In this document: piece after piece, positions 23,401-55,014 of the stretch
Layout: each line of letters starts with the position of its first letter
How positions within the stretch are numbered: position 1 is the stretch's first letter
DNA from: Echinarachnius parma
Taxonomy: Eukaryota > Echinodermata > Echinoidea > Clypeasteroida > Echinarachniidae
Assembly (NCBI GenBank): GCA_037951105.1
Contig: JBAMJV010008091.1
Coordinates: forward strand, 1-64,000
Direction of reading: 5' to 3'
Length of the DNA: 64,000 nt
Notes under the pieces: model-generated
The model's input: only the letters and a program-made list of their open reading frames with translations
Database searches by the model: none
What the model was told of the DNA's origin: nothing
Position numbers and translations under genes: made by a program

Positions 23401-26400
23401 AGCTTCAAGTCATAGATCAAATATTTTAAAAACTGGAATTTAAAGTGCTTCTGACATTGGAAAGCTCATGTAAGTTTTAAATTATATTCAATTCTAACCC
23501 CCTGTTATGTTAAGTTTGATTAATTGGTGAGATTTTAGCTAGAAATGATTTTATGATTTTTGCCAGTCTCACAAATTTGTTTACTGCAGCGTGCCTATGA
23601 GAGTGACCCTAGAGTGGGGGAGGGGTATGCTTAATGCAGGCTGTAAATTAAATAAACAAAACACAAATTATAGTATTATAACAAACCCGATTTAATTTTC
23701 GGATTAACGAAACCTATTTTATTTTCGGACTAATGAACCTTCGGAATAACGAACCTTCGGAATAATGAACCCGATTTCTTTTTTCGGATAAACGAACCTT
23801 CGGAATAACGAACCCGATTTCGTTTTAGGAATAGCGAACCTTTGGAATAACGAACCCTCGGAATAACGAACCTTCGGAATAATGAACCTTCGGAATAACG
23901 AACCTTCGGAATAACTGAACCTTCGGAATAACTGAACCTTCGGAATAACGAACCTTCGGAATAACGGACTGTAACCGAAATTTCGACCAGTGCAGTTTTT
24001 AAGGGTAGCGCGCATCATCACATGCACGATTTTTCACAACACGCCCAAAAACAAATATTATGCGGGGTGCCGATAATAAAAACAGTGCCGATGTGTAGTA
24101 CACCTACCAAACATACTGACCACAAGGCACAATCAACTAGATGTCTGAACTACTGAAGATTTGTTTTCTTTCTTTTTATTGACATTGTATGATTTGTGTT
24201 TTGTTTAATTGTTCTATTTTCTTTGCTTAGTCTTAAGTTTCTTTAGCTTTTTTGTCTAGGTCTAGATACCATAGATCAACCAGTAATGGATCACCTACCC
24301 AAATTGATGGCATACATGAAAACATTTATGACTAAATCTAGAGTCTATCTACTTATTTTTCATAGCTGGTACTGTAGAGGATTGTGCGTCTTATATCAAC
24401 TTTATCATCTCCTTTTTAAAAGGGATAAACCTCAGTTACATGATCATCACGCAACAGTGAGAAATTAGCCTTCAAAATAATATCATCTAGTGACAAAATG
24501 TTCAGATTTCAGATTTTCACGAAAAAATAAAAAATCTAAATTTTTCATTTAAGATGTTTAAAAATTTAAAGTATGCCGACAGATCTAGATTGTATCCGTT
24601 ATTTACACAGAAAGATGACCGGGTGTACACTCTACAGCATTTTCCGGGTTGTTTGGGTGCAGGCTTATAGTAAAAAAGGCCAATTTTAATGTATAATTAC
24701 AAGCAGAAATTATCTCTACCACTTTACCAGTATTACCAGTAACGGATCACCGATTTTCAAAACCTTATAAAAACAAAACGAACGATCATAATTAATTTTG
24801 TTTTGCCCTAGAAATGTATTTTACTAAAATCTGTGTTATTTAACTTAAAAATCGGAAATTACTCCAGATATTTTGGAAAATTCGATTTTTGCTAACATTC
24901 CGTAAGAATCATGTAGCAGATTTCAAATCTTCATAACTACATAAGGAAGCAAGTTTAAGAAGTAATATTTGTCCTGGTTATAAATTGCAAATTTTCAAAC
25001 ACTTTGATGAAAAATTTAAGATAATTGGTCAATTACTTTTCAAATAAAGCCAGGTGATCTGTTACTGGTGAAGTGGTGATCCGTTACTGGTAGAGCTCAA
25101 GGGGTTCTTAAAATCACGCAGCAATTTGTGCATTAGCGGCGGAATGAGTTTGAATCTGGGCAATTCCGGATGAGAGAGGCCAAAAATGGAAAATTTAAAA
25201 GTTTATGAAATACAATTTCAAAGCATGTTTTGGGTGGACAACGTCCTATATATTAGTGAATAGAAGACCATTTGTGAATAACTTAATCTGTTTTTCTGAA
25301 AGCAGTGTTTGAACTTTTTGGGTTTTCTAGGCTTCAGAATTGAAAAAATGACTAAATTCAATACCAAATCAATAAATCATTGATCCCTGAACTTATTCCT
25401 TTGTATACTTTGCAGTTATACTAGTATATGGATAATCTTCTTATTTTGTAAAGCACTTGTTCCAACCGGAACCAATATTTGCTGGACAGAATGACCAAAT
25501 CTACTCCAATTTGTATGTAATTCCGTTACCGAAATTCCAAGAAAGTTTTTTTAAAGAACTTTAATATTGATGAATTATTCTGTAATTGTAAATCCAATGC
25601 TAAAATATGTGTCCTTGAAATCCCAAACACCCAATTCTTTAATATCTTCACCCATTTCTATGAAAACATCGGTAACGGAATTACATGGTAACGGAATTAC
25701 ACCGGTAACGGAATTACATCGGTAGGGGACGCAACATTAATTTGACTTCAAAGTGGGTAGGAAGTTTTTGAAAGAAAGGAACTCCACCTGCTATACAGGG
25801 GGGAAAACAAAATCCAACTTCTGATGAGTAAAAAACAAATTATGAATATAAAGGAAGATATCAAATGAGATAGATCCTCTCTTATGACCTTCTGTTCTTT
25901 TGCCATAAAAAATAGTTGAGAAACAGTTTATCTATTAAACATATGTCAGGCATAGTTTTCACAAAGTATAAACAAACAAAATCTTGCAGTCTTTGGCAAG
26001 AAAATAAAAAATAGATCACCCAACCCCAACACCCTCCACTTGTTGAAGTCTAAGACTGCAGGTAGTATTGAGGAAGATAGTGTCCAAGATAACAGCAAGA
26101 ACACTCAGAACAGAGGAAAAAGCAACAACACAGTCTATATTAGCAATGTCATCAGCAGCGGCATGGAGGACCTCAAATTGAAATGGGTGGTAGTTCAACA
26201 CTGCAAAGAAAACAATGCCAACAAATTAATTGGCCAAGTGATAGAAGCTGTGGATAGTAACATTACTGTCAAATTATTGAAGCGAACAGTACCAGAGAAG
26301 TATGGTTGGCCACATAGTAGATGACTTTGGCTTGAAATCTCATCAGTTGCTCAACTTGGTCTAAAAAGACCAAGACTACCAGTACCACTTTGCGCCAGCA

Positions 26401-29400
26401 GGAGTATTGAGTATAAAGTTTCATCTCATTATCTAGTCAATCCCTTGCTTCTGCTTAAAAGCATTAAGACAATGGGCCCTTTGAAATTCTGTCAATATTA
26501 TAAGAGGTCACCTGCAAATGTCCAGGATGATCCAGACACAATTGGGCTGATGACAGACTATACTTCGGCTACATATTTCAAAGGGCCCATTGCCCTGTTG
26601 CCTAATATCAGAACTCAAGGGATTGACTAGATAATGAAAGGAAACCATTCAAATATTATAGCACCATACAGGAACTACACAATAGGTCTACTGGTGAATA
26701 TTGTTACCGGTAGGTTTTGTCTTTTTAAGCCAAGCTCAAGTTGAGCTACTGATTTGAGAATTCGGGCCAATTACATTATTCACAGGTCTTAGATATGTAA
26801 AAGAGCCACAAACAGACAGAATAGATATATACTCTCCTTCATATAAATGCATGTATCATGCTAACTTATTCACTGGCTTTAAAATATAGCTTGCCAGTAT
26901 TATTGCTGATGAATTATAGTTCAGACAATAAGATTGAACTATATCCTTGCTGGCCATTTGACTTGTCAGTATTGTAACATACTTTGTTAGTACAATTTAT
27001 AAATAAGTTTAGGATTTTTAAAACTTGAACATCTTTAATATCAAGTTGTACACATTGTGCATTACATAATATACTACAAACAATTAATTGTATCCCTGAT
27101 ACATGTATCACCTGATCTCTGACTATAAATTAATGTTCTTGTACATGCTTCTAACAATTTATTATGTCCAAATTGCATCAAGTATGTGTACATGATCAAA
27201 AAAGTGTCTTGGTAGTATTCTTCAGTAGTAGTGATTTTGATCAGATGGATGAGTTTAATTTAGAACAATTTAGTAGATGGCATACAGGTAGACATTATTT
27301 ACAGGTCTAATAGCATATCATAGATACCCTCAATGAGCCACAAATGGACAGAAGAGATACACTTTCCTTCATATAATTACTCATAACATACTAATTAGTT
27401 TCCTGGCTTTTAACTTCCCAGAATTATTGGTATTAACATTCAGACAATAGGATTGAACCCTATCCGTGCTGGCCATTAAAGGGTACCACCACCCAAAAAT
27501 AGTATTCTTATTATAGAAAGGTAACATCTTTAGTATTCCATTCCTTCAACAAGCTCACAAAAATATGTTTTCAGAAAAAAATATATAATTGGAAAAAGCA
27601 TCACCATTCTCAACCATGCTTTCATGCGGTCTGAATTGCGAAGACTATATGCGTGCAGAGCCAGAGCGCTCTGTGCAGAGCGAACGAATCATCCGGGATT
27701 CTATTGACGTACTCGTGAAAGCATTGGCGCACTCCCAAATGCTTGGCCCGTATGGAACCAGGAAATAGCAGTGGTTCTGTAAGTGGTGGAAATTAATTGA
27801 TTTGTTTATGAATTACACAACCCTTTGCAAAATGTCGGGTATCTATTTGATATCACAAAATGGTACCAAAACATATAATAAATGTGTTGTCCTTTGCCTG
27901 GTGGTCCCCTTTAAACTTACCAGCATGGTTACATACTTTGTTAGTACATGTCCAATGTATAAGTCTTCCCAGGGTTTTCTGAATTCTAATATCAAGTTGT
28001 ACACATTGTGTATTGCATGATATACTTCAAGCAATTCATGTTACCCTTGATACATGCATCATTTGACATCTGACTTTGATTTATTGTTCTGCTAAGCACT
28101 TGCTTCCCAATCTGTTTTGTCCAAATTGCATAATATAAGGAAGTGTACATGATCAAAAAAGTGTTTTTGTAGTATATCTGTGTATAAAATACTTTGGTAG
28201 AAGTGATATTTATCCAATGGATACGTATAGTTTAGAAGAATTTGTGGATAATTGACAAAGCAGTGTTACTAGTGTAATTCCGTTACCATGTACATTAGAT
28301 AGCTTTCTAGTACATAGAGAAATATGTGACCATTGATTTGAGCCAGGACTGCAGAGTTTGATAACAAGGACTATGTAAACGAATACTGACTTGAATTTCA
28401 CAAATACAAATAGTTATTTTTTTAGAAATTTCACACTGCGTTACCAAATTAACAAATAAAGCAGGCGTATTCATATATTACTTCATAATTTGGCATAAAA
28501 GTATCTTGCATTTTGGTTTTTATAAATGTTTGAACATAAAAATAACATTTTAAAGGGATTTTAGCTTATCTGGTATTCAAAAAATTAAACTTTTTAAGGT
28601 AAATTTCAGAAGGCGTAATTCCGTTACCATTTATGTAATTCCGTTACCGCTGCCTTTTTTGGAAACATGGTCAGTTACGACCAAACAAGATGAACATAAA
28701 GGAAAAAATTAATGTTATCATGAAGTTGACACCCATAGCAATGAATTTTAAAATAAATCTACACAAAATGTCTTTTAAATTTCAGAGGAATTCATGTGAA
28801 AGTTGAAGGTGGGAAAAAAGGCCCATTCTCTGCCGTAATTCCGTTACCGACATATCATACGTGCTAGCACTTTCCTCATGTATGAAATTTCCATATTTTT
28901 GTTTCTATATGACAGCAGGTATATCTCCAGAACTTATTAAAGTGTTGATAAGCCTTTAGGTCATAGGACTAATCCATATTATGAAAAAGAATGAGCAAAA
29001 TTTCTCTGAATTGTAATTCCGTTACCACGGAATTGCCCATCTACAATTCATAATCTGCACCATTTTAGCTTTCCAATGATGTATGAAAAATAATTTGTCT
29101 TAGCAAGAAATTGTATGCACTGAAAAGTGATCCGTTACTGGTTGAGCTACGGTACATAATGTTACTTTCTTTAGATTCACTTGGGATTTCTTTCCTTTTT
29201 TCCCCCTTTTTATTAAAGTCCGTCACTAAGAAGAGTAGAAGACTAAGACTAAAAAAGAGCAAAGAAAATGGGATTCCAGCGGGATTAGACTAAGGTTGAA
29301 CACCACCTTATATTATGTAAAATGAAATGGAATTGATAAAATGTGGCTCTCTTGAGACTTTGAAGTTCAAGAGTTAAACTCAGCCCAAATAGTACTTACA

Positions 29401-32400
29401 AGTATATGTCCATATATTGCTTCAGTGTATGAATGATTGAAATGCTTAAAAATATTGTATGACTATGACTGAGTAGGGTCTGTTTATAAATGCATACTCA
29501 ATTAAAACAGTGATGCAATGTTTTTCAGGAAAATGTTAATTGGGAACGAGGGGGGGGGGGGGGCTGTGTGATTCCATCATTCCAAACTCTATTCTATTGC
29601 AGCTGTGTAGAAAAGATCTAGCTACCAGTTTTACGATAATTTTGTTTGCTTGTCGTTCTCCTGGTCATGCTTGGGTAAGCATGAACTGATGTGATTTCTC
29701 AATATTTTTACACTTGTTATCTGTTCAAAATTGTTACTGTAAACATGATTAAACATTTTCGGTTTCAGAGCAAAACACGTTTCCTAGCAGTTCTGGGAGC
29801 TGGACTGCTTGTTGGTACCTCCTTAGCTGTAATTATTCCTGAAGGAATTCACTCCATGTATGCGAATAAAGGTATTTAAAGTATAACAATAATAGATACA
29901 TCATACAATGAATGTTGTCTAAAATCATTAAAGAACAATGAAATCCAGACAAATGGTTGTATGCACTATAAGTCACTAAATAGGATGAATAGTCCGTGAA
30001 AATTTGAGCACAATCGGTCAAGAAATAAGAAAACTAAAAAAAAGAGCCATTTCTACGAGTGACTCAAATTGGCAACGCACTCTGGCAGAGTTTTGGACTA
30101 CTCCCCATACATTTTGTATACAAAATTTCAATTTTGTTCAATTTTCTCAAAATGTATGTTTACCCTTCGTTTGAGTTGAACATATAGTTTTGTAGAATGC
30201 TTTTATACATGTAACATATCATGAGTTGGGGGAATGGAAAAGTGTAACTATGAAGAAAACTGTAAAAATGGGAACATTTGTGTACAAAACATATGGGGAG
30301 TAGTTCACACACTTATCAGAGTGCATTGCCCATTTGAGTTCCCATAGGAATAAATGGACATCTTCAAAGAGCCATATTTTTCTTGTTTCTTGCCCGATTA
30401 AGCTCTAACTTTCAGAGATTATTCCTCCTAATCTCTTCAAGTCTATGAAAGCAACATTTTGCTTGGGTTTCATTGTCCCTTAAACTTGAGGGTCAAAAAT
30501 TCTTTATTGATAAAATATTGACATTGCTCTGCATTGAAACAATTGAGGATTTAATTTCATGCCTCCAAGGCTCCAAGCAAAGTGACTCCAGACTTTTTAA
30601 AAGCAGTAAAAGTTAACACTGGAAAAGTCACTTCAGAGACAATTAAGAATATTCATCTAAATTAAAAGCAGAAGGCATCAACCTTTAAGGGAAAGATTCC
30701 CCAACATACATGTATATTAACATTTTATTATGTTCTCTACACATTGAAACAGAATTTCATGCAAATATGACCGACATTGGCCCTTTGTGCAAGGGATGAG
30801 CATCTTTCAAAGTCACTCGCTGAACGGGCTAATCCCATTCATCGCGTACACCACGGAGGCTGCCATTGATGTTTATGAAACTCGGATCGCTCTAAAACGT
30901 GACGTCAAACCTGAATTACTCTTTTTGTTGGCTCACGTTTTGCCTTTTTTTTTGCACAAACCCTGCGAGCTGCGAGAGCTAAGAGGTCGAGCTTGTTTTT
31001 TCAGGTTTGACGTAGCATTTCGGCGCGAACAATTCAAAATCCGGGTTTCAAAACATATAATGGCAGCCTCGACGCTATACGCGATGAATGGGATTAGCCA
31101 ATACAGCGAGTGACTTTGAATGATGCTCCTCCTTTGTTCAGAGGGCAAACATTGGACATATTTGCATGAAATTATGTTTTAATCTGTAGGGCAATTCCAT
31201 AAATATGTCAACCAGTAGGCCAAAATTTCAAAATCATCATATTGGTCCAAATGATACATCAATTTGAAGGTAATAATGTGAACTGTCAAAAACTATTCAT
31301 TAAAAAAAAAATTGATCAAGGTCAAGGTCATGAGACCCTTCCAAATCAAGGCATTCTGAAGTTGCTGATTTTTCTTTGCTGTAACATACCATTTGATATT
31401 TGTATGTATTTCAATTAAAATAGACTGAATAATTAATTGATCATGATAGATGTACACATTATAACTTTCTGAATCCATTACCACACAAAAATTAGAAAAA
31501 TACTCTTTTAATTACGATTTGTAGCTAATTAATATCAGGACTATTTTTGTCATGTACGTCCGACACGGAAAAACACTTATTTTCAATTTCACGAAAAGAC
31601 AAAGAACCCAATAAAGGGCAGGATGTCAATGCAAAGCAAGTTCTAACCCCTCTACACAGAGAGTAAAAAAAAAAATTCCAATCATCACTAATTAAGGAAA
31701 AAATGGGTGGTCGGACGTACACTTTTTGAGTACGTCCGACCATGTACGTCCGACACGGCATTGAAATGAGTAGGTTTTTGCCAGCCTAAAACACTTAAAT
31801 TCACACTGTATCCTATCTGTATGATTGAAGAGTGTATTCAAATGTAATATCTCTTAATTACTTAGTGATTCATATCCCTAATTCTAACAAATCATCATAA
31901 TATGGCTGGACATTCCATAGTCACATTTTGTATGGGTATTTACATACTAATACTACACACTATCATGCTGTCATTAAAAAATATATCATAAAAACATACT
32001 TCAGAGGGCTTCAGATGGACCATGTTGTATAATTATTATTTAATTATGACTCACTTAGGCCATTTAATAATTTTCTTAGTAGGAAAGAACAACAAACATA
32101 CATTTTGTGATAACAAAATCAACCCTATACTTCAAATTTACATTATACATATAGTTCATGTAGTCCCAACAGTGCATATTCATGTTAGTGAAGATTAATT
32201 GTGTTTTTATTTGTATTATACTGCCATAATTTAATGGTACAGTGAAAACATGTTTATATCTACCATTTAAGACAACATTAGTTACTAATTATGACTTAAA
32301 GTGTCTATTTACAGCAAATATTTCAGCAGCAAGTAGACTTGCATTTGTATAACACATGTACGTCCGACATGGCAGTCTTGTACGTCCGACATTGTACGTC

Positions 32401-35400
32401 CGACACGAAAATAAAACGTAAATATTTCATGCTTCGAAGGGAAAATATCAATTTTTTTTTTATATTTCCCATCATTTCTAATCTTATCCGAATGGTAATA
32501 GATGATTTGGCCCCAAAAAATGATCAACTTCACAGAGTTTTCCAGTTGAAATCCTCATGTCAGAAAAATCATTTTCTCTGAGTACGTCCGACCATGCAGT
32601 GTTTTTTGATCGGTACAAGGTCATTATGGTGGTAAAATCTGAATAAGTCATATTATTATTTTCTACTCATCATTAGCAATCTATTGATCACATAAAATCT
32701 TATAATTTACATTTACTTCTCCTTTAGTACCTAATTGAAGTGCGTGAAATGTACGTCCGAATTTATGGAATTGCCCTGTAGAGAACAAGATGATGGGGAA
32801 ACTTTCCCTTTAATTTAAATGTTCAAACATGAATACCAAGTAATACAACAAAATAACAACTATTTATACATGTACAATTTGAATTTATCCAATGTAAAAT
32901 TTTATATGATTATTAATGAATCTGTAAAGCCTTGTACCCCATAATGGTTTATGTTTATCAATATTTATCTAGGGAAAAAAAGATGCATGTTTATGAAATC
33001 CATTACAATCAATGAAAATAAAGAATAAATTAAATATGATACCTGTACCCTTAATTTACAATAGACATATTTTGATTATTTCATGAATATTAAAGACCTT
33101 TTTATAAGTCCTTTAGTACACCTGGACCCTGTTGCAGAAAGATTTGCAAGTAAAGTTGCAAATAATTGCAAGTCAGAACATGTGACTAAATGCGCAAATC
33201 TGATTGGTTCAAATGTGCATATCTTCTGACTCGCAGTTAATTGCAACTTTGCAATCACTTGTAAGTTTGTAACTCTTTCTGCATTGGGGCCCAGGGGAGT
33301 TTTTACAAAGATTATAAATTTAACTTAAATCCAAGTTATTTTTTTTTTAATGGAAAGGCAATGATAGTTAAAACATAAACATGATAATTAGTTTTAAAAT
33401 GCAGCTCATAGAATTTGGTAATAATCATGAATATTTTATATTTTTAAGGATATTTAATGTTCTTGAAGTAAAATGTTTGCTTTTGATTGTAGATATTCCA
33501 AGGCTACAAATGGCCTACCATAATTTAAATTCTAACTTGGAAAAAACATAAAATCTTTGTGAATCACCCTCTTGGTACCATGTTGCTTTTCTATTGGTAG
33601 GCCATCAACCATGTGAAGACAAAGCTAACGGAGCAATAGGTCCAGAAAACAACCCAGGCGACGGGGACATCAAACAAGCTGATGCAGAAGAACATGTGCA
33701 CACACACGCCCATGGAGGAGTCGAGGATCAGCATTATCTGATTGGTGTGGCTCTGGTCATAGGCTTTGTCTTCATGCTGTGTGTGGATCAGATTGGTGGA
33801 GGCGGCCACAGCCATTCAGTCGGTCCTCTCCCTAGTAAGTAGAAGAGAGCATTCATTTCAGTGCTGTTGTGGAAAGGATCTATCCGTTTGTGATGAATCA
33901 AAACCATGTTTGCTTTTTAGGTTTCATCTAACTGTTTTTGTTCACATTCGAGAAGAAATATTCCTAGTATGTTCTAAAAACTACAGAAACACAATCTAAA
34001 ACTATGTTGAACAGCAATCACCTTGTTACTACCTGTATTAATTCCACTAAAAATATGAAGAAACTTGCTTCCATTTTAGTACTTTATCATTAAAAATGTC
34101 ACCAGCACAATGGTATTACCATTTGTTTATGAGAAAAGGTGAAATAATGCTGAGTATACTATATAGGTTAAGCAAGAACAGTCCGCTCTTTGTGTGACAG
34201 GTTTAACCTTTTTAACCTGTTCAGGACTTAACATTTGATTTTTTGGAATAACATGTATTCTCCTTAGACTGCAGTATTTTGGGTACCAGTCCTGAATGGG
34301 TTAAACATAGTAACAATTTAACCTGTACCTTCAGTATTCTGAAAAATACATTCAATCAAGCCATAAAATACCAGCCATTCGTTATTCAATTTAGTACTAT
34401 GAGTGAAACTTCATAATTTCATAATTGTTCAATTTATATGTGATGTGACTGCTCTGTTGTAGCCAGGCAGAAGTTGCATTTCAATTGCAACTCATGTGAG
34501 AGGCAAAACTTATTCTGTTAATTCTGTTAATTCTGTTTTGTTTTTGTTTATACAGGTGATCAAGAGGTGTCCAGTAGAGCGAGCCAAAAAAGTATAACAG
34601 CCACACTTGGACTTGTTGTTCATGCTGCAGGTAAAGATACACATTGCTTAAATTAAAGGGATAGTACAGTTTTGGTCAAACTTAATTTTAGTAACCCAAA
34701 CCTGCACCATAACATTACAAACTAATAGTTTATAACTCCACCATGCTCAAAAGGTATACAAACGACCAAGTAAAAAGAGCTGTTAAAATGCAAGAGGGCG
34801 CTCTTTAAAAATGCATTGGATTAAACTATTTTTTATTGTGCATGTGATGTTTTATTGAAATAATGATTAAATCGAGAGATCATCAACAACTATTGTAAAC
34901 CTAATATGTGTGGTTTGCGGTAAACCTATTGTAGACCTCTTGAAAAAATTTGAAAAAGTGTAAGCATTTTATTTTGTTTTTCTTAAATCATTGAATAAAC
35001 CTGGGGCCCCAGGTTTATTACCGATCGGATATATTTATTGATGTTTTAGCTGTTTCTGAACCGATTTTGATCAAATAAAGTTTATTCTGTCTTTAAAATT
35101 GTATGCTCTTTCAAATTTGACACTCAGTTTTTCAGTACCTCACAAAAAAGTATTTCTTGAAGCGCCCTCTATACCAAAACTGAACTACCCCTTTAAATTT
35201 ATTATGACAATTATTTCTTTCTGTATGCATGATTTTCAAAAGGGTGTTCAATTAAAAAAAATAAAAATAAAAATAAAAATGTGAGCAGGTTGAGTATCAT
35301 AGCTGACCAGTCACCACATAAGCCTAGGGCCACAATATTTCAATTGTCTGATTAAAATGGAGCTTTCTGGTAATATATAACTTGGTACATTAAGGTAAAA

Positions 35401-38237
35401 ACAACTATATGCAAAATGGTCAGAAATCCAGCAACAACATAGCCACTGTATTGAACAAGTCAAGTATTTTTCACTTTTCTTGTTTTACACATCGTGACTA
35501 TATGAGGTTTTCTTGGTAACATGTTACATATTATTTGTTTACTTGTTTGGAACCATTACCATTATGTATTTGCCTTTCTTCCAGCTGATGGGGTTGCTAT
35601 GGGGGCTGCAGCCACTGCATCAGGAGCAGACATACAAATGATAGTTTTCATCGCAATAATGTTGCACAAGGTAATTTGAAATCCATTTGTATTACTCTTT
35701 TCATGAATAAATGTAGTTTGAAAAGGCTATTCCCTTATAGACATTCTGAGATAATTGTTGCCTTACCAACATAAAAACTCATTTGAATGTAGGTTGCATG
35801 GTGTCGGTTACAATCATTTATGATCACTAAAAAATTATATATACATGCAGTGGCGTAGCATGGTATGACTGATTGGGTGCACAATTTCCATCTATTTCTA
35901 TTTGTATGTTTTTATTGTTTCGTCGATAATTGGAGGTGAAGCACCCTCCATGCCCCTGTAGCTTAGCCACTGAATAAATGCAATTCTATTGAAAATACCA
36001 TACACAGTAGTCCTTTTAATTGATTTTGAATATGCTAATATGCAGTGAATATGCTAATAACTTTCTTGATTATTGCGATGTATAAGTTGTACCAGTTATA
36101 ATCCATGGATGTACATCTATTTCCTCCTTTCAAGGCACCTGCAGCATTTGGCCTTGTGACTTTCCTGATGCATGAAAACTACGAGAGAAATCGGATACGC
36201 AAGCATCTACTTATATTCTCACTGGCAGCCCCAGTGGTGGCAATGCTATCTTACTTCAGCCTTAGTCACGTAAGTACAAACTAAGTACTGCTCTTTGACT
36301 GTAACTTGCATGATACCACAAGGTGGCCTACGCTCTTCATCTAGATCATTATAAGAAGCCTCAAGAACATACGTTATATTATATGGAAAAGGTGCATTTT
36401 TGCAGCACAAGACATATGGAATCTGCTGCCTCTTCTTATTTAATTCTGTACATGTTACAAGCTACCTCCCCTTCATAAAAATGCTATTGTAGCAATCTGT
36501 GAAAGTGTATTGTATGGTTTATTGTAATGATTTCCAGATTATACATACTTTCTGGCTATTTGAATTGTCCAATACAGCACTGTCAAACCAGTTTTGCATT
36601 TTCAGACTTTAATGCTTCATGAATTAGTTAACATATTTAGTTTAATGGCATATATCTTGCACAACTTGTGCTCTACCAGCTGAGCTATAGAAGGCTTTTT
36701 GCTGGCGTTCCTCCCAGAACCCATAGTTTCATTACTTGTGATGATCAGAAGCTTGAAATGATTTACCGTATTTGCCGGTGTATTACCCGCTCCGGTGTAT
36801 TAACCACATCCCTAACTTTGGGGGTTTTCCATGAAAAAAAAAAAATTTTGATAGTAAAATTCTTGATTTTTTAGATGGTCAAAATGTGCCGAAGTAAAAA
36901 CATAATTCTTTTTCAGAGAGTTTTGGTCTATGAAATATACTTCAATTTACTGAAGTCTCTGAAGCACAGAAACAAAATTATGAGCCCCTTCCCTGATCAA
37001 TCTGTAAGATTTGTTGAGCTTACCAAAATACAACACGGAACACTATACATGGGACTGTAATAAATTCTAGAAGAAAAGCGAAAACAAAACAACACAAATT
37101 AATCAAAACGGAGATAAAAAAACTGTACCTTGATATGTTATTCCTTCTTACAAGTTCAGATTTGGTTAAATCTACCCTTGAAAATAGTTAATTCTAAGCT
37201 TCTTTTGGAGATTTTGAAAAATTGCGATCGTAACTTGCAAGTGGTGGGGAGAAAAGTGCAGCATTGATTTGACTGAAATTAGCGATCAATCACGATCAGA
37301 GGTCAGTGATCAAGATAGGATTGGGAGTGGATGATCGCTCATTTCAGTCAAGGCACATATTTTCTCTCTAGATTGCAAGTTACGATCGCAATTTCTTATC
37401 CCCCAAAATAGCTTAGAATTAACTGTTTTCAAAGGTAGATTCAACAAAACTTGAGCTTATAAGAAGGAATAACATATCAAGGTACAGTTTTTTCATCTCC
37501 GATTTGATTCATGTTTTGCTTGCATAGTGTTCCATCTCTATCTCTGTGTAAGAACCGCACCCCCCTTTTCGTCGGTATTTCCGTCGGGAATACCATGTGG
37601 TTATACACCGACAAATACGGTATACAAAAAGCTGCATCACATTGGTGATCCCTCGCACATATTCCTAAGTTGATTTCTTATCCTTTGGGGCTGTGTCAGG
37701 TTTATAATAGCTTCTGACCATCACAAACATTGAAACTAAGTAGTTTCAGGGACGAACACCCACACAAGGGCTTTCTATAGCTCGGCTGGTAGAACAAGGG
37801 TTTAGCTATCTGGAAGTCTCTGGTTCTAATCCAGGAGAAACCCTATATATTTTTGCTCATTTTTCATTTATATTATATATTTCTGGTCAGTTCCATATTT
37901 TAAAAATATATATTGTATTTCTAATGAGAGTCGTATGAAGCCAGTTGCTTTGACGGTTGATTTCTCGTTGTCTCTTTAATTTGTTCAGGCAAGCAAAGAA
38001 GCACTAGTGTCTGTGAATGCCACCGGACTGTCGATGCTCTTCTCAGCTGGAACATTCCTTTACGTTGCAACTGTTCACGTGTTACCAGAGATCGTGGCCA
38101 TGAAGCACCACCAAACTCTGCCCACTGACCAGGGAACAGTGACTGAAGTCAAGCAAGGACTCTCATGCTCTGAGCTCACGGCCCTGGTGTGTAGTTGTAT
38201 GGCTCCCCTCTTACTAGCCATGGGTCACCACCACTAG
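20344..38237 (+). CDS. SLC39A9: Zinc transporter ZIP9, whole gene span
   Basis: ZIP-family zinc importer, in vertebrates found at Golgi and plasma membranes, moving zinc toward the cytosol. Seven exons (20344-20451, 29769-29871, 33601-33834, 34556-34630, 35585-35670, 36135-36269, 37989-38237) join into one clean 329-codon frame; human ZIP9 has 307 residues. Membrane segments include [19 protein letters not shown] and [21 protein letters not shown] His-rich loop (HVHTHAHGG) precedes [20 protein letters not shown]. The metal-site motifs [13 protein letters not shown] and HKAPAAFG are both intact. The C-terminus MGHHH parallels human VGHQH. All introns are GT-AG and all junction phases match. 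Intron 1 (9.3 kb) and intron 2 (3.7 kb) carry nested transposons, which the coding frame tolerates. Confidence 0.96.
20599..20738. mobile_element. 140-bp perfect palindrome with 9-bp target duplication
   Basis: TAGATCGACAAATCTATCGC and onward reads as its own complement over nearly the whole length, with only a tiny loop (GGCATGCTAGAATGCC region). CCACAGCAT is duplicated at 20590-20598 and 20739-20747. A diverged relative is at 47013. The 9-bp duplication is typical of Mutator-like elements; superfamily is inferred. Confidence 0.88.
20755..21634. mobile_element. 880-bp near-perfect palindrome with 9-bp target duplication
   Basis: Ends TAGTCCAAG and CTTGGACTA; each arm is about 435 bp and nearly identical, meeting around TATATAATACAGTAGAGGAT near 21190. 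ATCGGCACC is duplicated at 20746-20754 and 21635-21643. Long arms, TAG/CTA ends and a 9-bp duplication point to a Mutator-like (MULE) foldback. Both short open frames here are arm sequence. Confidence 0.9.
21862..22196 (+). repeat. TTCGTTATTCCGAAGG array, left arm
   Basis: About a dozen copies of TTCGTTATTCCGAAGG or TTCGTTAATCCGAAAATGAA on the plus strand, spaced 15-40 bp. The same word appears reverse-complemented at 23690-23970, so the two arrays form the arms of one foldback structure. Confidence 0.85.
22692..23223. mobile_element. Foldback element enclosing an AAACTCAGTTTATC array
   Basis: Ends GTGTTCACAAACAACAAATT and the inverted TTTTGTGTGTGAACAC, with AATCATGACTAAAGAATCA and its complement just inside. 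Inside these, GGCAAGCCCTTTGTGTAAAAA (22753) and its complement (23115-23136) bound a block with about 15 copies of AAACTCAGTTTATC on both strands. It sits between the two TTCGTTATTCCGAAGG arrays. Confidence 0.75.
23690..23970 (-). repeat. TTCGTTATTCCGAAGG array, right arm
   Basis: Reverse complement of the 21,862 array, written as CCTTCGGAATAACGAA with the variant CCCGATTTCATTTTCGGA-like words. The 102-codon frame with FRRFVIPKV repeats is the array read in translation. Confidence 0.85.
26040..26440 (+). pseudogene. Coding-like remnant inside element A
   Basis: A 94-codon frame (26040-26324) holds [29 protein letters not shown] and [14 protein letters not shown], a pattern like the small Tudor/SH3-like C-terminal segments (xVGxVLEVxxxxVTVKFLxRxxxxxxxWP) that I recall from transposon-linked proteins of invertebrates. 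After one frame change [20 protein letters not shown] follows, continuing the same kind of tail. It has no counterpart in element C. Function unknown; a decayed transposase-associated ORF is possible. Confidence 0.4.
27481..27910. mobile_element. TTAA-flanked MITE, AGGGTACCACCA ends, copy 1
   Basis: Ends AGGGTACCACCACC and GGTGGTCCCCT; TTAA at 27477-27480 and 27911-27914. Shares CCCAAAAATA, AAAAAGCATCACCAT and GGGATTCTATTG-like words with the copy at 58,627. Inserted into the duplicated middle of element A. Confidence 0.8.
29769..29871 (+). CDS. SLC39A9: SLC39A9 exon 2
   Basis: Acceptor TTCGGTTTCAG, then [34 protein letters not shown], donor AAAG|GTATTT, phase 1. Corresponds to human [20 protein letters not shown]. 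The next intron contains a foldback element with a second transposon inside it. Confidence 0.95.
30689..32808. mobile_element. Foldback element in SLC39A9 intron 2, split by element B
   Basis: Ends GGGAAAGATTCCCC and GGGGAAACTTTCCC, with TTTAA at 30684-30688 and 32809-32813. Arms of about 280 bp share CAAAGTCACTCGCTG, GGCTAATCCCATTCATCGCG, GAGGCTGCCATT and GACGTCAAACCTGAA. Element B (31189-32776) cuts the right arm near its outer end. Frames 30787-31113 and 30933-31148 are arm sequence. Confidence 0.82.
31189..32776. mobile_element. Element B: GGGCAATTCC-ended transposon with TACGTCCGAC words
   Basis: Perfect 16-bp terminal inverted repeat GGGCAATTCCATAAAT, TGTA duplicated at 31185-31188 and 32777-32780, total 1588 bp. 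TACGTCCGAC or its complement occurs at about 31555, 31713, 31730, 31745, 32358, 32380, 32394, 32582 and 32752, mostly in two end clusters. It shares the ten terminal bases and the 4-bp duplication with elements A and C but not their internal word. Non-coding. Confidence 0.88.
33122..33293. mobile_element. Short inverted-repeat MITE, GGACCCTGTTGCAGAAAG ends
   Basis: Left CTGGACCCTGTTGCAGAAAG is answered by the right TTTCTGCATTGGGGCCCAGG; internal TTGCAA and GACTTGCAA words also mirror. About 170 bp and non-coding. Confidence 0.7.
33601..33834 (+). CDS. SLC39A9: SLC39A9 exon 3 (His-rich loop)
   Basis: Acceptor TATTGGTAG; encodes a hydrophilic loop with [20 protein letters not shown] and then a membrane segment and [11 protein letters not shown]. 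Donor CCTA|GTAAGT, phase 1. The loop is longer than in human. Confidence 0.95.
34556..34630 (+). CDS. SLC39A9: SLC39A9 exon 4
   Basis: Acceptor TTTATACAG; encodes [20 protein letters not shown] and VVHAA, donor GCAG|GTAAAG. It begins the catalytic HAAADG motif. A TTAA-flanked element (34657-35192) starts 26 bp after the exon. Confidence 0.95.
34657..35192. mobile_element. TTAA-flanked element family T, copy 3 (best ends)
   Basis: Starts AGGGATAGTACAGTTTTGG and ends CCAAAACTGAACTACCCCT, a clear terminal inverted repeat, with TTAA at 34653-34656 and 35193-35196. Internal AACTCCACCATGCTC, GCAAGAGGGCGC and ATCATCAACAACTATT match copies at 11,685 and 18,582. Confidence 0.82.
35585..35670 (+). CDS. 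SLC39A9: SLC39A9 exon 5 (metal-site helix)
   Basis: Acceptor TTTCTTCCAG; encodes [20 protein letters not shown] and VFIAIMLHK, donor AAG|GTAATT, phase 0. His and Asp of HxxADG and His of HKxPAAFG are zinc ligands by family knowledge. Confidence 0.96.
36135..36269 (+). CDS. SLC39A9: SLC39A9 exon 6
   Basis: Acceptor [29 protein letters not shown] then [20 protein letters not shown], donor CAC|GTAAGT. The intron after it holds a foldback element (36765-37621) and SINE copies in both orientations. Confidence 0.95.
36664..36760 (-). mobile_element. tRNA-like SINE fragment, minus orientation
   Basis: Read on the minus strand gives GCCTTCTATAGCTCAGCTGG then TAGAGCACAAG, an excellent A-box region. 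It is followed by a shortened body, and no intact B box was seen. Confidence 0.5.
36765..37621. mobile_element. Foldback element in SLC39A9 intron 6
   Basis: Ends ACCGTATTTGCCGGTGTATT and the inverted ACACCGACAAATACGGT. The arms further share AACTGTACCTTGATATGTTA and CTTACAAGTTCAG-like words around 37110-37160 and 37440-37490, and GTTACGATCGCAATTT. No coding capacity; target duplication not resolved. Confidence 0.72.
37694..37845 (+). mobile_element. tRNA-derived SINE, copy 5
   Basis: GTCAGGTTTATAATAGCTTC head, TTTCTATAGCTCGGCTGGTA A-box region and TCTGGTTCTAATCC B-box region, as in the 7855 copy. It ends about 140 bp before the SLC39A9 exon 7 acceptor. Confidence 0.68.
37989..38237 (+). CDS. 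SLC39A9: SLC39A9 exon 7 and stop
   Basis: Acceptor TTTGTTCAG; encodes [20 protein letters not shown] then HVLPEIVAM and the last membrane segment, ending MGHHH and TAG at 38235-38237. Confidence 0.95.
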
Positions 38238-46110: not shown

Positions 46111-46179
46111 GCCCCAATCCACCCAGACCTTGTAATCGGAATTAAACGAGATTTAAATGAAATTTAGATTGAAGTTTAA

Positions 46180-46285: not shown

Positions 46286-47012
46286 TTTGCTTAATTTTCC
46301 TGGGCGTGAGGTTGTCTTTATTTATGAAACAGAGCGCGCCGCACAAATACGATACATGATACGGTGCGGTGGCGGATAGGTAGCCGACTGTAGCCCGCTG
46401 GATCTCCGGCCGTCACCGTGCATTTATATATTGACTAGCATGAGCATGACATTGATTACGACCATCTATTGGAGCTTTTTTAAGTATTATGCCTAGACCA
46501 GATACAGAGAAGGAATGGTTATGTCACGAATATCAACTTAGAAATATAACTGGATAATTACTGGGCTCATGTTGAAACGAATAACCGTAGCATTCTCATC
46601 ATCTGGTGATCGTCATGAGCAAACAAACAACACTTTTCCAGAATTGGGGATGCAAAAATACAACTTCGAAAGATGAAGGTCTGTGAAATTACATCATTAT
46701 ATAATTATATAATTAAGACTTTACAGTTTACTATGACGGACATTAGTTACCTATGACGATACACTATAGATTTTGATCAAATAGTATTTCCGTTAAAAAC
46801 TAAACATTCATTTCTTTCTGCTTGAGTATTGTACAATTAAATTGGAACAATTGATTGGGTGCAGCACACATTTAGAAGAAGAATCTGTATTGATATAAAT
46901 ATGTTGTTCTGTATGTATTCCCTCAATGATTGTCTCCACAAAATGTAAAATGTATAACCTCCACTAAATTCTGCATTTGTTTTTTGAAAGCACCTGTTTT
47001 TGTGTTTAGATT

Positions 47013-47159
47013 AGATCGACAAATCTAGTATCGTTTTCATGGCCTCTTTTAGTTTTAAATTTAATTGCACAGTTTTTAGTTTTACTGTCTGCTATTCTAG
47101 CTAGACTGCAATTGAATGCTAAGCAAAGAGGCCATGAAAATTATAGATTTGTTGATCTA
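47013..47159. mobile_element. 147-bp palindrome, second copy of the TAGATCGACAAATC family
   Basis: Starts TAGATCGACAAATCTAG and ends TAGATTTGTTGATCTA, with CATGGCCTCTTT and its complement inside, as in the 20,599 element. The flanking nonamers TGTTTAGAT and CATTTAGTT agree at six of nine places, fitting an old 9-bp duplication. Confidence 0.7.
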
Positions 47160-47254
47160 CATTTAGTTATAATATGCCAATGTCATGATGAACTTGTCTG
47201 CTTGAAAATCGTGAGTTTTTTATTTGAATTGCTCTGACATTCCCTTCGAAGAAG

Positions 47255-47368
47255 TGCCCACGACTCACTTATTACACATGTGACATATATCTAAAAGAAC
47301 CGATGCGCTATAAAAATTGGATAGAGCATGGGTTCTTTTAGTCGTGCATAATAAGTCGTGGGCACGTC
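47255..47368. repeat. Hairpin repeat, GTGCCCACGACT ends
   Basis: GTGCCCACGACT at the left pairs with AGTCGTGGGCAC at the right, and CTAAAAGAACC pairs with GGTTCTTTTAG inside. Non-coding. Confidence 0.75.
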
Positions 47369-49318
47369 TTGCAAAAGAATGCCAAAGCTCTTCTATGACT
47401 ATGGTATGGTATGTGTTTGCACGCTTTACGCACTCGTATGACCTTTGTTAATTGACTTGAGTATTGTACTGTATGATCGATATTGGCATTTGGGCAATTC
47501 CACCATAACGGAATTACATTCAGAGACGTTTTTTGCTCACTATTTCATTCCCTGCGCAATATTCTCATGACTTAAGTAAATTTTTATACTTATATAAGTT
47601 GCATGGGTAACAAGGCTACAACATGATAGGGAAATGGTTTTATATCTTCCATGTGTTGTTGCACACTAGACCAATATGTGTGACCGTAACGGAATTACCG
47701 GAGAATGGAGTTTTTTTATTGCTACAAGTTTGCGTTGAGTTTCTCTGAAATATAAGACACTTTGAAACTGATTTTATGTATTTTTTCTATCTTGATAATG
47801 TCAACTTTATTTTGGAACAAGTAGGTGCATAAACAACACAATGATAAGTTCACAAATTCACTTTTTTGAAAAAAGACCACTGTAACGGAATTACACAAAT
47901 TTGTAACGGAATTACATCTCTGAAAGTTTCAAGGTAAACTCAATTATTTTGCACTCAACTTTTCTTACATGCTAATGCAAACATCAAGGCTATCTAGCAC
48001 TTGAATATAAACCATGATTTGACATATCTGTAAAGCAATATTTGAACTTGTTATGTGTAAAATAAATGAAAATATGGCAAAAATACAAACAAGAATGAAA
48101 TTTGAAAAAAATATTGCTAAACTCCAGCTTTATTTCGGTTTATTTTCAGCTTCATATTAGTAGGCAAGAAATTAAAAAGGATTGCATCAATTAAATGAAA
48201 GAAAAATCCTAGAAACTATGTCCACTAAAGTGTGTAACAGAATTACACAACTTAAGCAGTGGGATCAACTTTTCCTCAAATCGGTACATGAACAACAAAA
48301 AATTCACATTTTAGCTTCAATACTTTTCAAAAATCAATAATTTGACAATAATAACCATATTTGAAGTAAAAAATAGCAACATTTTTTAATTTTTCCTTTA
48401 CTTCAAGAAAAATGGTTAAATTGTAAAAAAACCCAAAGTACAAAAAAAAAAAAGTACCTACATTATGTGACATGCTAAAGAACTGCACATCATCAATATC
48501 AAGAAACATTTAAACAATTTAAAATCACAAACAGGTCAAATAATTCAACTTTCAATGCTATAAAGCCTCGTAAACTTCCTGAATATTGGAAATCTGTGTG
48601 AATGGAAATGCATTGTGAATGGGCAATTCCACTGTTACAGAATGACATATAAGTGATTTTTACCTCTGTTTTCTTAATCATATTTAAAATTCCTTTCACT
48701 TCCACAGTTTTTACAACTTTAATAACTGGCAGGGGTACTAGAGGTACAAATCTATAAAACTGTAGCGTCAGGAGACCAAAATACAATCATAACGGAAAGG
48801 GGTCTTTTATTCAACACTAACTTTGTAATGATTTTCTGCAAAAGCTACCACAAAAAATTCTTCATTGGTAATAAAAACTTATCAGTCAAGTTACAAACTT
48901 GAATTTGGTACATCTTTTTTCCAGAAATGATCTATTTTAACCTCTGAAATTACCTTAAGACAAACGAATGTCACTGTAACGGAATTACGCCTGTGAAATC
49001 CACCCATGAATCCACCTATGAAAATGCAATTTCTTGGTTACATTTTTCTGCGTACAGTCTATAGTAAAGAATTTGTATGCATTGTTAATTTGTATGCATT
49101 GTTAAACAATGTATGCATTGTTAAACTCTTACATAAGGACCAGAACAAATCCTGAATTTATGTGTGTGCGTAACAGAATTACAAACAAATCGAGATTTGT
49201 TATATATAAACTCTTGTTATATTCTAAAATTATTCTTTTAAAAAATTCATCCTAAAGTGATCTTAATTTACTCTCAAATCAATTTAGAATGCGTTTTCAT
49301 TCATTTCATGAAATACAT

Positions 49319-52300
49319 GGGTCAGAATTTTGAAAAGTGCACTTTTCGGCCCAAACAGGGTAAAATTCAATTATTTTTTGTATTTAAAGACATCTATCTA
49401 ATATGAAAGCATGCAATCCTAGCTTTCAGGCGTACCCCATTATACTGGGAAACTCCATGTGGTTCCGTTTTTATTCACTGTTGAAGTAACCCATCTCCAA
49501 AAGGCGAACGTCCGTGAGGGATTATGTAGATATAGATTTAGTACCCATATATCTCATTTATTTTCTGTCATATACAGCTTATATTCGGACAATTTACTTC
49601 TAAGACTTGCTTCTCTCTGTATGCCAAACGTGGATTGTGTATTATTTGCCAAATAGAAAATACAAATGTCCAAACTTTGACTGAATTGTTATATTTCTTT
49701 TTAAATAATGTATTATTCGGAACCTTTGCTTTTCTTTAGCCGCATTTTTTAGGTAAGCACCTATATACGCTCGTATTCCCGTATCACATATTTTAATGTG
49801 CATGTTAATAGGATCAATTGCTGTCTAGATCATATATTACATAATTACATGACCAAAGAGAGTATAGTTTTCATCACGGACGTTCCCATATCGCTCACGG
49901 ACGTTCGCCAGAAACAAGAATGTTGGCAGAATGATCTGATCTCATCAAAAAGAGTTTCTATTCTTCGTAAATGGCTTTAAAACAGGGTCATTATAGAAAC
50001 AAACTTGAACATTGCAATAAACCTTTAAAAATGGTTTGGTTTTGACATGGACCTGGTCGTTATAACGAGTCCTATTATTGGTAATTTAAATTGATTTAAT
50101 GCTTATAGAACAATATGATGATAATACTTTATCTATTCCTATTATATTTAAGCTAGAGACCATGTATACATCCTAGTCAGATATAAAAGTAGCATTTCCA
50201 AGTCGCCTGGTCCCTCTTTCTTACTATATTGTTTTTAATTACAATTTCACGGACGTTCGCATAAATTTCACGGACGTTCTCTGCCTGAACAGTCTTACAG
50301 AAATTGATACCAACATTTATTTGAATCTCCTCCAGACCAATATAAAACATATAAATTTATCAGTTGATATGATTTTAGCTATCTGAATTAATTATAATGA
50401 CATGTCTGCTACTTAACTATCACTCTTAGTGGACCTGTGAAAATCGTAACCCCTAATTTTACACCGGCTTTCCCCGGTTGGGCACTCTATAACAGAAATG
50501 CCACTATACTTCTGTAAATAAATGATTTTACAACATTTCTGCAAACATAAATAACATGTATAATCAAAATAAAGGCCATTTTCCAGTTACCAGAATACGG
50601 TTTCTCACATGAGTCTTAATGTCACGGACGTTCGTATTAATTTCACGGACGTTCTCGAATTGCCTATAGTGGTACCCAAGTGTCCCATCTTGAGTCAATT
50701 AATTACAGAAATAAATGTAAGTGCCAACATAACGTAAGTGCAAACATATATGCCTATCACACGTTTCAAACCTTGCCATATATATTTAAGATGTATTTTG
50801 ACTTTGGGAGACCCATAATATATAAACTGTTATTTTGGTTTGTGTATGTTGTACATATATTTCGATTCAATTCGTATATGGTTTATTAATTGAAAATACA
50901 TATATTTATCTATTCCAGCTATATGGCTGAATTGCTAATGCATTTTCACAAAACATAAAACAAACTGAGGGTAACAAAAGCCATGAGCAAAGTAAATAAT
51001 ATACTCGTATAACTTATTTCTTAAATAAATACATATAGATTGCATTTTAGATCATACATGTATATGTTTTGTATAAAGAAATATTAGACATAGAAACCAT
51101 TACGCTAAATATATATAAGCTAAACATATTATATGTGTTTATTATCGCATTTTATTATTATATTTAGAAAGAATATTTTTATTTAATGTAAAACCAATCG
51201 CATAATTATTATAATAAAAACAATCATTGTAAAGCCTAACTGTTTAAATCTAATTTGCAAAGATTTTAAATTGTTTTATAACATTAATATGTCAAAGTTA
51301 AATCTTTCAAATAATCACGTTGATAGTTAATTCCGATGTTTCCTGACCCACATCTCGCTTCCTAATTGTTAACCTCCAATCGGTTTTAATGTTTCAATTA
51401 GAATTAAGAACAATGTTGACCTTGAATGGTTTATTATAAATATTGCGCGAGCTGAAATTTAGTTGTATAATATTATAATGATCCTAGCAAAAACAATATT
51501 TTTGATATATCAAGAAAGAACAAAACAGCCAATATTATATATTATTACGATGAAGTCATCAAAATAATGCATAAATCTTACAATCTCTATTAAAAGTGAA
51601 GAAGTCCAACAAATCTAATCCCTTGCTAGATATAATTTCAAACGATACCACATAATTTGGCACTATTAACAGATTGAAGCAGAGATGCTTTGAAAACCCA
51701 TTCATACGTCATCATAATAATAAATGCGTTTGTCTCTTAGATCTGCATACTTACGGGCTGGATATTGCAGCTTTGCACATCAGGCAAAAATTATGATATA
51801 ATTATGTATTTATTATCGTATTATCATTATTATCATTATTATTATTTTATTTATTTATTTTCTTTTTTGAGGGGGGGGGGGGGGGGGGGAGAGAGGGGTA
51901 TGCATGTATTCGTTGCTTTTTCGTAATACAGTCAATATTGTAAAGCAAGTAGCTATCCTCTCGCAAGTAGCTGACGACCTTTGTGATGTACCTCTTCTTT
52001 TCAAACTGGCGTCATACAGCCATTTAGTTGGACTTAAATCCGACAGGCAGATGAGAAAACAGTCTCAAAGCCTGCAGCAGAGGAGGAGCCGACAGTCTCA
52101 AGTTTTGCAGAGGGTGGGGCAACAGTTTCCACTCAGACCTTCAGTTGAAATGTTGTTATTGCGCCATATACCCCCTTATTACCATTATGTTTTGAACAGC
52201 TTTCTTTCGCTTGTAGGCCTGCGACTGTGCACAATCATAATCTTGGGGTTTGCCTTCCTATAGTATAATGTCAACGCTGCACGGGTAGAAGTAAATATAA

Positions 52301-53604
52301 TATCTAGGGGTGTTACAAAACAGCTAAGCAAGGTGATCAAATGTAAAACGAACCTCCGTGATGGTGACTAAAAATCAACATATTCATGTGTGGTTGGCAG
52401 TGACCTGGGTCGAAAGGCACACAGAAGGGGCACGTGCTGTCAAAAAATTGTGCCATTACTTGAACTTTTACTAAGATTTTTGGGGCCATAAATGACGAAC
52501 GAACGTCCGTGAGCACAACATTTCATAAGTTTGTTACAGTTAAATGACTTGCAGGAAATAAATCCATATGGGATATGAGAGACATAACAATGTACTAACA
52601 ACATCAAACAGTATCAACTTGATGTGAGCGTTTAACATGGTAACATTATTAGAACAATTTGCATGATCGAACGTCCGTGAACGAACGTCCGAGCGAACGT
52701 CGTATCATAAATAGTTGTCAAAAGGCTTCGAAAATGCCTGATATAAGTTTTTGGTTAGCTGCTTGCCAAATAAAATTGCTGTACCGGTGTCTACGTGCAG
52801 ATAAGCAGCCTCAGATTCGTAACTGGGTCTACTCTTGCCGGACGTTCGTTTTCATCACGGACGTTCACGAAGATCAGTTTCGGCCCAAACCAAACATTGT
52901 ATTTGATAGATAGTTTTCAAATAGGCAAAATACTGTGGCCCTACTGTGAGTTCATCAGACTGACCCCAGCAATTGATGACTAGGATGCACTTCGCTGAGC
53001 AGTGATGATACAAGACAACAGAACGTCCGTGACGAAATCCAGTATAATTTCATACAAAAAAATGTTACTCCGCGAGCAGGAGTAGTTAGCCAACAATTTT
53101 TGTAGAATGTGTTCAGTGGGTTCAACCCTTGGTTTTGGCAATAGTTTTTGTTTTGACAACTAAGTAGAATTCTGGTTGTATGGATTTTAATGTATGTTCA
53201 CGGACGTTCACTTATTATGACCTTTCCTATTGAAATGTACCATGAGATCATATCAATGCCGCTCTACCGCCAATTCTTATGTGATACATGCTCAAGACAT
53301 GTAAGATAGAAAATATAGACGTTAATGCCTTTAAAGTTGATTAATATTTTTTTTATCAGGTTAAAAAAAATCATAATTTTGTGGAAAATGCCAATTTATG
53401 CTATTTTTTCACATTTGAGGTCCTGTGGCATGAAACCAAATGTTTGAAATGATATAAAACTATACATTTTCTGAAAGCCTTAATAATTCTCTTTAATATG
53501 AGACCCAAAACAGGTATATCAGAGTTAATGGTGAGACACAGCAAATGATAGAAGCGCTCAAGGTCTGGAAATGGCTAAAAGTGCACTTTTCAAAAATCTG
53601 ACCC
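49319..53604. mobile_element. Element D: GGGTCAG-ended transposon with CACGGACGTTCG words
   Basis: Terminal inverted repeat of about 28 bp with one mismatch: GGGTCAGAATTTTGAAAAGT then GCACTTTT, mirrored at the right. ACAT is duplicated at 49315-49318 and 53605-53608; total 4286 bp. CACGGACGTTCG or its complement appears at about 49507, 49875, 49895, 50249, 50268, 50622, 50643, 52496, 52670, 52682, 52840, 52856, 53022 and 53197. The middle (50.7-52.4 kb) is free of the word and contains a poly-G tract (51871-51889). Inserted in element C. Confidence 0.88.
52047..52145 (+). pseudogene. Coding-like fragment inside element D
   Basis: After a possible acceptor (AAATCCGACAG) a 33-codon frame reads ADEKTVSKPAAEEEPTVSSF then AEGGATVSTQTFS before a stop. 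Composition is GC-richer and more protein-like than its surroundings. It could be a captured exon piece or a relic of the element's own gene. No domain recognised. Confidence 0.25.
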
Positions 53605-55014
53605 ACATACGTACGGATATAAACATGTATGATCCAAATACAAAAAGTTGGCATACTATATAAAATATAAAAATCGAATTGCAAAAAATGAAAGACACCT
53701 TTAGGAATCCCATTTGAAAATGCAAATACTTTGTACATCTTCTTTGATCTGCATACAGAAGCACACTGAACACTCAATGAATTCTGACTTTATGATAATG
53801 AATAAAACATATCTTAGCCTGTATTATGTATAGTTTTAAATACCTGGAAGCCTATTCTGTATTTATGTTTGATTTTATATGCTTCAGTTTAATACAAATT
53901 TACATAATTAATGGTGAATTATGAGCCCTTAACTGATCAATGATATTCAAATCTACATACAAAATTATTAATATTAAATCTCCTTGAAAGTTGAAGGTAT
54001 GATTTATATCTTAAAATACATCAATGTAAATTAATGTGAGAAAATAAATGTAGAACCAGTGTCATACTAATTACTGGATATTTTTACATTTTTGTTATCG
54101 TTTTTGTTTTCCCCTTTCTAAAGTACAAACATGAATCTGCTGCATCTTCATAATTTCAGTCAAGTGGGTCTTGCTGGAAACTAATTTAATGATAGAACAT
54201 TATCATCTCTATTATGTTCATGGAGAAATTAGAGAAATTATCTATCGTGTATCAATTTAGTTGATGCAATCCATTGATGCAATATGAAGCATGTGAGGTA
54301 ATGAGTCACATAAAGTAACATTGTACAGTACATGTATGTATAATGACTTATTGTCTACATGGCTACAGTTCATGCTATTTAAAGGGTATTTCTACATTCA
54401 GAACAAGAAAAAATGTTATTTTCAGCAATATCATTCAATACCTTACAAACCATGTGCATGTAATTCCGTTATGTAACGGAATTACTAATACTGTTACGCA
54501 ATTTTTGGAAAAAGTAGTGACATTATTTCAGAAAATTATGTTGGAAGTTCTTAGGACTATGGTGAAGGAAGAGAATTCACAATGACATGACTAAAGAACA
54601 AGTAATAAGATATTGAGAAAAACTTAAAACGTTTTATCGTAACGGAATTACGATCAAATGTGCATAGATTAAAAAAAATTCTCAAAAAAATATGCAATGA
54701 AGTTACTGCCCATGCTTTACAATTTGTGATTGTTACAACATCGTATGGAAAATATGAGAAAATGAGCAGAAACAGTCATTGAATTAAAAGATTCACTTTA
54801 TTTTCACAAAATGAAGCTGATTTATGAATAAAAGGTCATAAATTTCTGTTCAATTCAAGCAGAAATATTTGAAAAACCAATTGAGCTATATACAAACGGT
54901 TTTCAGTTTCCTAAAATTCAAGTTTTCCTCTATTGATAACAGTTTGATTTAGGGAAGATTGCTCAACTTTGAGATGTGGTGTTTTTGCCTTCTCTCATAC
55001 GGAATTGCCCATTT

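Follow-up and report, generated by a model that had tools for sequence, protein, structure and literature searches.

Across the transposon families that we found in the window (the whole 64-kb stretch of DNA that was analysed) and in loci fetched from the same genome, a short family-private word of 11-14 bp was reiterated at near-fixed distances from the element tip, in steps of ~180 bp, which suggests a spacing rule for the grip of a transposase on its DNA. The words contain CG and differ between families, and one tip can serve several of them.

Two elements of one kind had been proposed in the original prediction. Element A extends over positions 25158-29038 (3881 bp; 25154..29042 with its ATCT duplications) and element C over positions 47492-55010 (47488..55014 with its ATTT duplications), and their ends, coordinates and duplications proved correct, as did the claim that the ends match in opposite orientation: the left end of A resembles the right end of C, and the right end of A the left end of C. 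The ends read GGGCAATTCC/GGAATTGCCC, at 25158 and 29038 in A and at 47492 and 55010 in C. The word of this family, GTAATTCCGTTAC, had been predicted to recur about ten times, and we indeed found nine exact copies in A (starting at 25517, 25672, 25688, 25705, 28274, 28615, 28635, 28835 and 29013) and 10 copies in C, of which 6 are exact and 4 differ at one base. Over the entire window, allowing two mismatches, we counted 20 matches where 1.48 were expected, and none of 100 shuffles reached 20. The tip GGGCAATTCC occurs once more inside C, at 48621..48630 (+ strand), and extra tip copies within or beside a C-type element were also seen at 3207-3226 of the fetched locus L049 (oriented), as though tips could at times be duplicated or land inside one another.

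Beyond these two elements, the window contains another element that shares their tip (B), a cousin (G), and an element nested in C (D). Element B (31189-32776, 1588 bp; 31185..32780 with TGTA duplications) has the tips GGGCAATTCCATAAAT at both ends, as in A, and carries another word, GTCGGACGTACA, in nine copies at no more than one mismatch. Element G (14424-17304; 14420..17308 with AAAT duplications), a cousin of the A/B/C kind, has the terminal inverted repeat (TIR) CAGCCATTCC and the word GTGACTCGCGTGAC, whose 12-bp core occurs in six copies. The TIRs of A, B and G measure 10-16 bp, and the tips of A-type elements are of the form GGG..CCC. Element D (49319-53604; 49315..53608 with ACAT duplications) makes up the middle of C, so that C itself measures ~3.2 kb. 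D represents a separate kind and has a 28-bp TIR, GGGTCAGAWTTTTGAAAAGTGCACTTTT, tips unrelated to those of A, B, C and G, and a word of its own, TCACGGACGTTCG, with an 11-bp core in 12 copies. Inverted tips and a 4-bp duplication were seen in all five elements, A, B, C, D and G.

The window holds further repeats and some coding sequence. Positions 21862-23969 (repeat F) show a 16-bp unit, GAAGGTTCGTTATTCC, in inverted arrays flanking ~1.5 kb, and positions 22750-23133 are foldback-like, with units resembling AAACTGAGTTTATC. Inverted-repeat pairs, foldback or MITE-like, lie at 477-1140, 11022-11535, 30062-30339, 37101-37509 and 30737-31189, the last of which stops at the left tip of B. Pfam hits to BTB and BACK domains mark a kelch-like gene at 12538-13449 (- strand). 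The translations of 55558-55935 and 60349-60921 resemble what we take to be exons of a FANCM-type helicase; a Pfam scan of the latter translation returned no hit.

The assembly (1.2 Gb, 14,790 contigs), which we searched with reversed patterns as controls, bore out the prediction that A is part of a genuinely mobile family that makes 4-bp duplications. The right end of A, word included, had 173 exact matches and the left end 177, against 0 in either control. We fetched 20 of the A loci with ~9.9 kb on the inner side; three had no exact left tip and stand outside the duplication count, and all 17 copies with both tips were flanked by a perfect duplication of 4 bp, and none by one of 5 bp, which disposes of the concern that the duplications had arisen by chance. 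Among the letters of these duplications, 64 of 68 were A or T, and in a set of 30 right flanks of A copies (the 17 included) we counted ATAT 12 times, ATTT six times, AAAT four times and others eight times, so that 22 of 30 fit AWWT; of the five window elements, two fit (ATTT of C and AAAT of G), with ATCT, TGTA and ACAT as misfits. Over the best stretch, identity to the A of the window was 94.8-98.5% in 16 of the 17 copies (84% in the remaining one), and most would therefore be recent. When the flanks of A were joined over one ATCT, all 40 scored hits (from 405 candidates) crossed the junction at 83-91% identity, and the two best ran over 236 versus 236 bases, a zero net length change as judged by match span. 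A has an empty site in paralogous DNA, within copies of repeat E, its host (24267..29154, provisional bounds set by an imperfect inverted repeat; word GTGATCCGTTACTGGT). With this empty site, the reading of A and C as parts of one segmental duplication falls: their flanks differ, and the spacers at their ends are only ~50% identical. A and C are separate insertions of one inverted-repeat transposon kind.

The other kinds are numerous as well. The right end of B had 222 exact matches (reversed control 0), the TIR of D 359 (control 0), a G-type end pattern 68 (control 2) and a K-type pattern 156 (control 20), which puts the share of K-type matches that may be due to chance at roughly one in eight. 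A pattern made of GGGCAATTCC, a GT..AC word and ACATT occurred at 1,696 places in the genome (control 1), the first 35 of which comprised 23 of family P (word GTAACGGAAGGAC), eight of family H, one of family J and three of other forms. Accordingly, one tip serves several words. Further words were found in fetched loci of families H, J, K and M, behind the tips GGGCAATTCC, GGGCAAGTCC or GGGTAGGTCC, which brings the words found behind tips of the A-like kind to eight in total.

The original prediction had described the word as crowded toward both ends. The reiteration at the ends was confirmed, but the description was incomplete, since the words stand at fixed distances in ~180-bp steps and the same layout recurs with other words in B, G, H, J, K and M. 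Elements A, B, C and G each have one end of an R type and one of an L type. At the R-type end of A (28615..29038, + strand), word centres lie 20, 198 and 398/418 bp from the tip, and at that of B (32358..32776, - strand) at 21.5, 190.5 and 378.5/392.5/414.5 bp. Over seven families (A, B, G, H, J, K and M), the R-type clusters are centred at 23.8 (SD 5.0), 197.6 (SD 4.8) and 396.6 (SD 9.2) bp, where the first cluster of J (22 bp) was read by hand; the third place holds two or three words in A, B, G, K and M and one in H and J. At the L-type end of A (25158..25717, + strand), word centres lie 366, 521, 537 and 554 bp from the tip, and the L-type clusters of three families (A, B and G) are centred at 368.7 (SD 2.4) and 544.0 (SD 6.4) bp. 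Paired words lie 13-22 bp apart. The ladders of words extend over ~7-9 steps, to ~1.7 kb on the left side of C and to ~1.3 kb on the left side of D.

Pooling the distances, we obtained a best period of 181-182 bp with a score of 0.711, which none of 2000 random sets reached, and a second pooled test at this period gave 0.775 (0 of 1000 random sets). Three repeats had no part in these main tests: C because it is homologous to A, E because its ends are uncertain, and F because it is a tandem array. Families K and M had been chosen by eye among 88 word groups, and their far ends were looked for and not found; without them the score was 0.766 (0 of 600 random sets). The period also held when E and a second copy of J were added (0 of 600). 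Smaller subsets gave weaker results: D by itself was matched by 12 of 800 random sets, the right end of A together with D by one of 800, and the L001 copy of J by 16 of 600. The step itself varies, from ~187 bp on the left side of D to ~171 bp on its right side, and in repeat E the right-hand words fall on the ladder and the left word, ~480 bp from the presumed end, falls off it. Because the families share common ancestry, they do not count as independent trials.

The layout could also be used to forecast positions. Going by the L-type distance of A, the far tip of G should have stood within 17150-17450, and that interval did contain, at 17295-17308, the near tip in exact inverted form followed by AAAT. 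Family P was known from its tip and first word alone when we forecast a same-orientation word pair at 385-420 bp from the tip, a forecast stated together with the search. The pair pattern matched 1,143 places in the genome (control 0). Among the 71 of 100 listed pairs that lie on contigs up to C420, i.e., those that the list of tips covers too, 68 had a listed tip on the same strand within 3 kb, and 63 of these 68 stood at 385-420 bp (median 403), with the remaining five at 364, 376, 378, 1209 and -1267 bp. Seen from the tips, the word pair was present behind 64 of 77 listed 29-base (P-like) tips and behind none of 19 30-base tips. Family P thus has the forecast layout, as far as this could be checked; as its copies are kin, it adds one more family, not 63.

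While words and distances were kept, the DNA in between had turned over. In the homologous comparison of the right end of A with the left end of C, 63 of 65 word positions were identical versus 348 of 701 spacer positions (~50%). Between families, A-C aside, 23 of 27 spacer comparisons remained under z 3, and the four above it were B-K (5.1), H-M (3.4), B-M (3.2) and G-J (3.1). This retention of words and distances amid replaced DNA argues for selection on them. In several families the word, taken in the direction away from the tip, resembles a pair of GTNAC-like pentamers ~4 bases apart: GTGAC-TCGC-GTGAC in G, GTAAC-TGAC-GTTAC in J, GTTAC-GTAT-GGGAC in K, GTGAC-GTAC-GGGAC in M and GTAAC-GGA-ATTAC in A. 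This apparent grammar was read by eye, with no statistics behind it, and the words of B and D fit it poorly.

We consider it likely that these patterns are best explained by a transposase that acts through the words, with their spacing under selection, in line with the original suggestion that the reiterated word is probably a transposase site. The mover of the elements has to be inferred because a transposase gene was not found: it would be encoded by an element and supplied in trans, and would cut at the conserved ~10 bp tip. Its recruitment and assembly would take place on the many word copies, recognised by a DNA-binding part of the protein that evolves together with the word, and selection would hold the ~180-bp step because subunits, once bound, have to come together in a single complex on DNA that is looped or wrapped around nucleosomes. 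A private word would keep the transposase loyal to its own family, with the cutting signal staying common.

In A, an open stretch of 122 amino acids (25956..26324, + strand) encodes a broken protein remnant (WVVVQ...KLIGQV...ITVK) with at least 150 scored matches in the genome. It had no match in Pfam, and its four hits in the PDB all had E values above 1. Together with one of 130 amino acids in D, it is the longest open stretch in the window elements (cut-off 110 amino acids). In the fetched A copies, we recognised no transposase, only the broken remnant, and a copy lacking the shared stop turned out to be one more left end of this kind, again with no transposase. A genome search with PF13359 (DDE_Tnp_4), the transposase domain expected in PIF/Harbinger-ISL2EU (PHIS) elements, gave 150 scored hits out of 394 candidates; in a low-power comparison by eye with the first 100 listed ends per search, none lay clearly within an element. 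Contig C170 carries three weak fragments at 8-12 kb on the inner side of a listed end, and one hit on contig C4796 lies ~0.4 kb outside a K-type end. On contigs C3860, C2278, C5381 and C5130, listed ends of A stand an unusual 7.6-11.7 kb apart and may enclose an autonomous member.

What sets the step can be pictured in two ways. It may come from protein bridging and DNA looping within a multi-site complex on naked DNA, a variant that is compatible with the preferred explanation and that we regard as a serious possibility, short of probable. The word pairs 13-22 bp apart resemble dimer sites, as looping would have it, and a linker signal in base composition was looked for in word flanks and mid-spacers and not found: G+C was 0.349 next to the words versus 0.330 in mid-spacers, and A/T runs were equal. 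Ladders of ~7-9 steps, however, exceed what a simple two-site loop needs. The other picture is a transpososome gauged by nucleosomes, with one word cluster per nucleosome repeat, which we put forward tentatively. A step of ~180 bp falls in the usual range of nucleosome repeat lengths, and the transposase would read a phased array from the tip inward, the families speciating by swapping the word throughout while keeping tip and gauge. The near equality in base composition of word flanks and mid-spacers leaves this picture unproved. In favour of looping, Sleeping Beauty needs two spaced sites in TIRs of ~220 bp (PMC7827188).

Explanations outside a transposase fare less well. The words might bind a host factor, acting in chromatin, replication or silencing, and be kept because that factor opens or phases chromatin, for which the nucleosome-like step, the CG within the words and the GTNAC-like grammar (a by-eye reading) that a host factor could read all speak. 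Such a factor would favour a single word, yet the word differs by family within one genome with tip and layout constant, and we hold this reading to be unlikely. Less probable still is that tandem duplication left the regular spacing behind, the ends deriving from decayed satellite units of ~180 bp with one word each. Arrays with units of 78 to ~185 bp do occur in fetched loci of this genome, and two of 20 comparisons between the inter-word units on the right side of D, made in both orientations, showed likeness (one direct, z 4.4, and one inverted, z 3.5). Against this, all 12 unit comparisons at the right end of A and all six on the left side of D were without mutual likeness (z <1), spacers mostly differ between families, and decay would have spoiled the spacing too, through indels. 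Chance repeats, or a single segmental duplication bearing A and C, are refuted by the excess of words, by the 173 and 177 genomic ends, by the differing flanks and duplications and by the empty site of A.

Returning to the transposase reading, subterminal transposase sites as such are already known. For a distance rule held across families whose words differ and whose spacers are largely unrelated, we found no precedent in the open-licence literature, searched by titles and abstract openings; a literature search for the words and tips themselves yielded one unrelated paper and no prior description, and none of nucleosome-spaced transposase sites was found at the level of titles and abstracts. 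Such a rule would offer a way into three questions: the assembly of transposases on chromatin, the concerted change of a DNA-binding domain and its many dispersed sites, and the means by which sibling families escape mobilisation by one another. With 1,696 ends matching one pattern alone, and with fetched A copies that are recent, the rule is testable at scale.

As part of the preferred explanation, A, B, C and G are probably non-autonomous members of class II, from related families of cut-and-paste (TIR) DNA transposons. Known superfamilies differ in their target duplications, of 8 bp in hAT, 2-3 bp in CACTA, TTAA in piggyBac, TA in Tc1-mariner and a 3-bp TWA in PIF/Harbinger, and we rejected all five, given duplications here of 4 bp, mostly ATAT, ATTT and AAAT. 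In En/Spm (CACTA), Ac/Ds and other hAT elements, a short motif bound by the transposase is reiterated near both ends, just as the words are here; En/Spm and hAT elements have 2-3-bp and 8-bp duplications, respectively, with other tips and with motifs within a few hundred base pairs, so that duplication length, tips and motif packing all set them apart from the present elements.

Some IS481EU families share the 4-bp duplication (others make ~15 and 25 bp), and this superfamily was rejected on its tips, given as TNT..AYA (PMC10045372) versus GGG..CCC in our elements. The original prediction that no superfamily could be named was too strong, since Sola2 is described with 4-bp AWWT duplications (ATAT, AAAT, ATTT) and short TIRs, of 12, 13 or 21 bp in the families named (PMC3627910); it stood insofar as the transposase that would settle the matter was not found, and for want of this defining protein we leave the A-type elements outside Sola2. 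With AT-rich 4-bp duplications (AWWT in 22 of 30 A flanks) and a short TIR, they resemble Sola2 most closely, and they differ in the reiterated words and the stepped layout, of which the excerpted Sola2 description makes no mention (PMC3627910). With Sleeping Beauty and its Tc1-like IR/DR arrangement, in which all four sites are needed (PMC7827188), they share more than one putative transposase site per end. Sleeping Beauty has a TA target and two sites per end, whereas the elements described here have 4-bp targets and many words per side, with the words differing by family.
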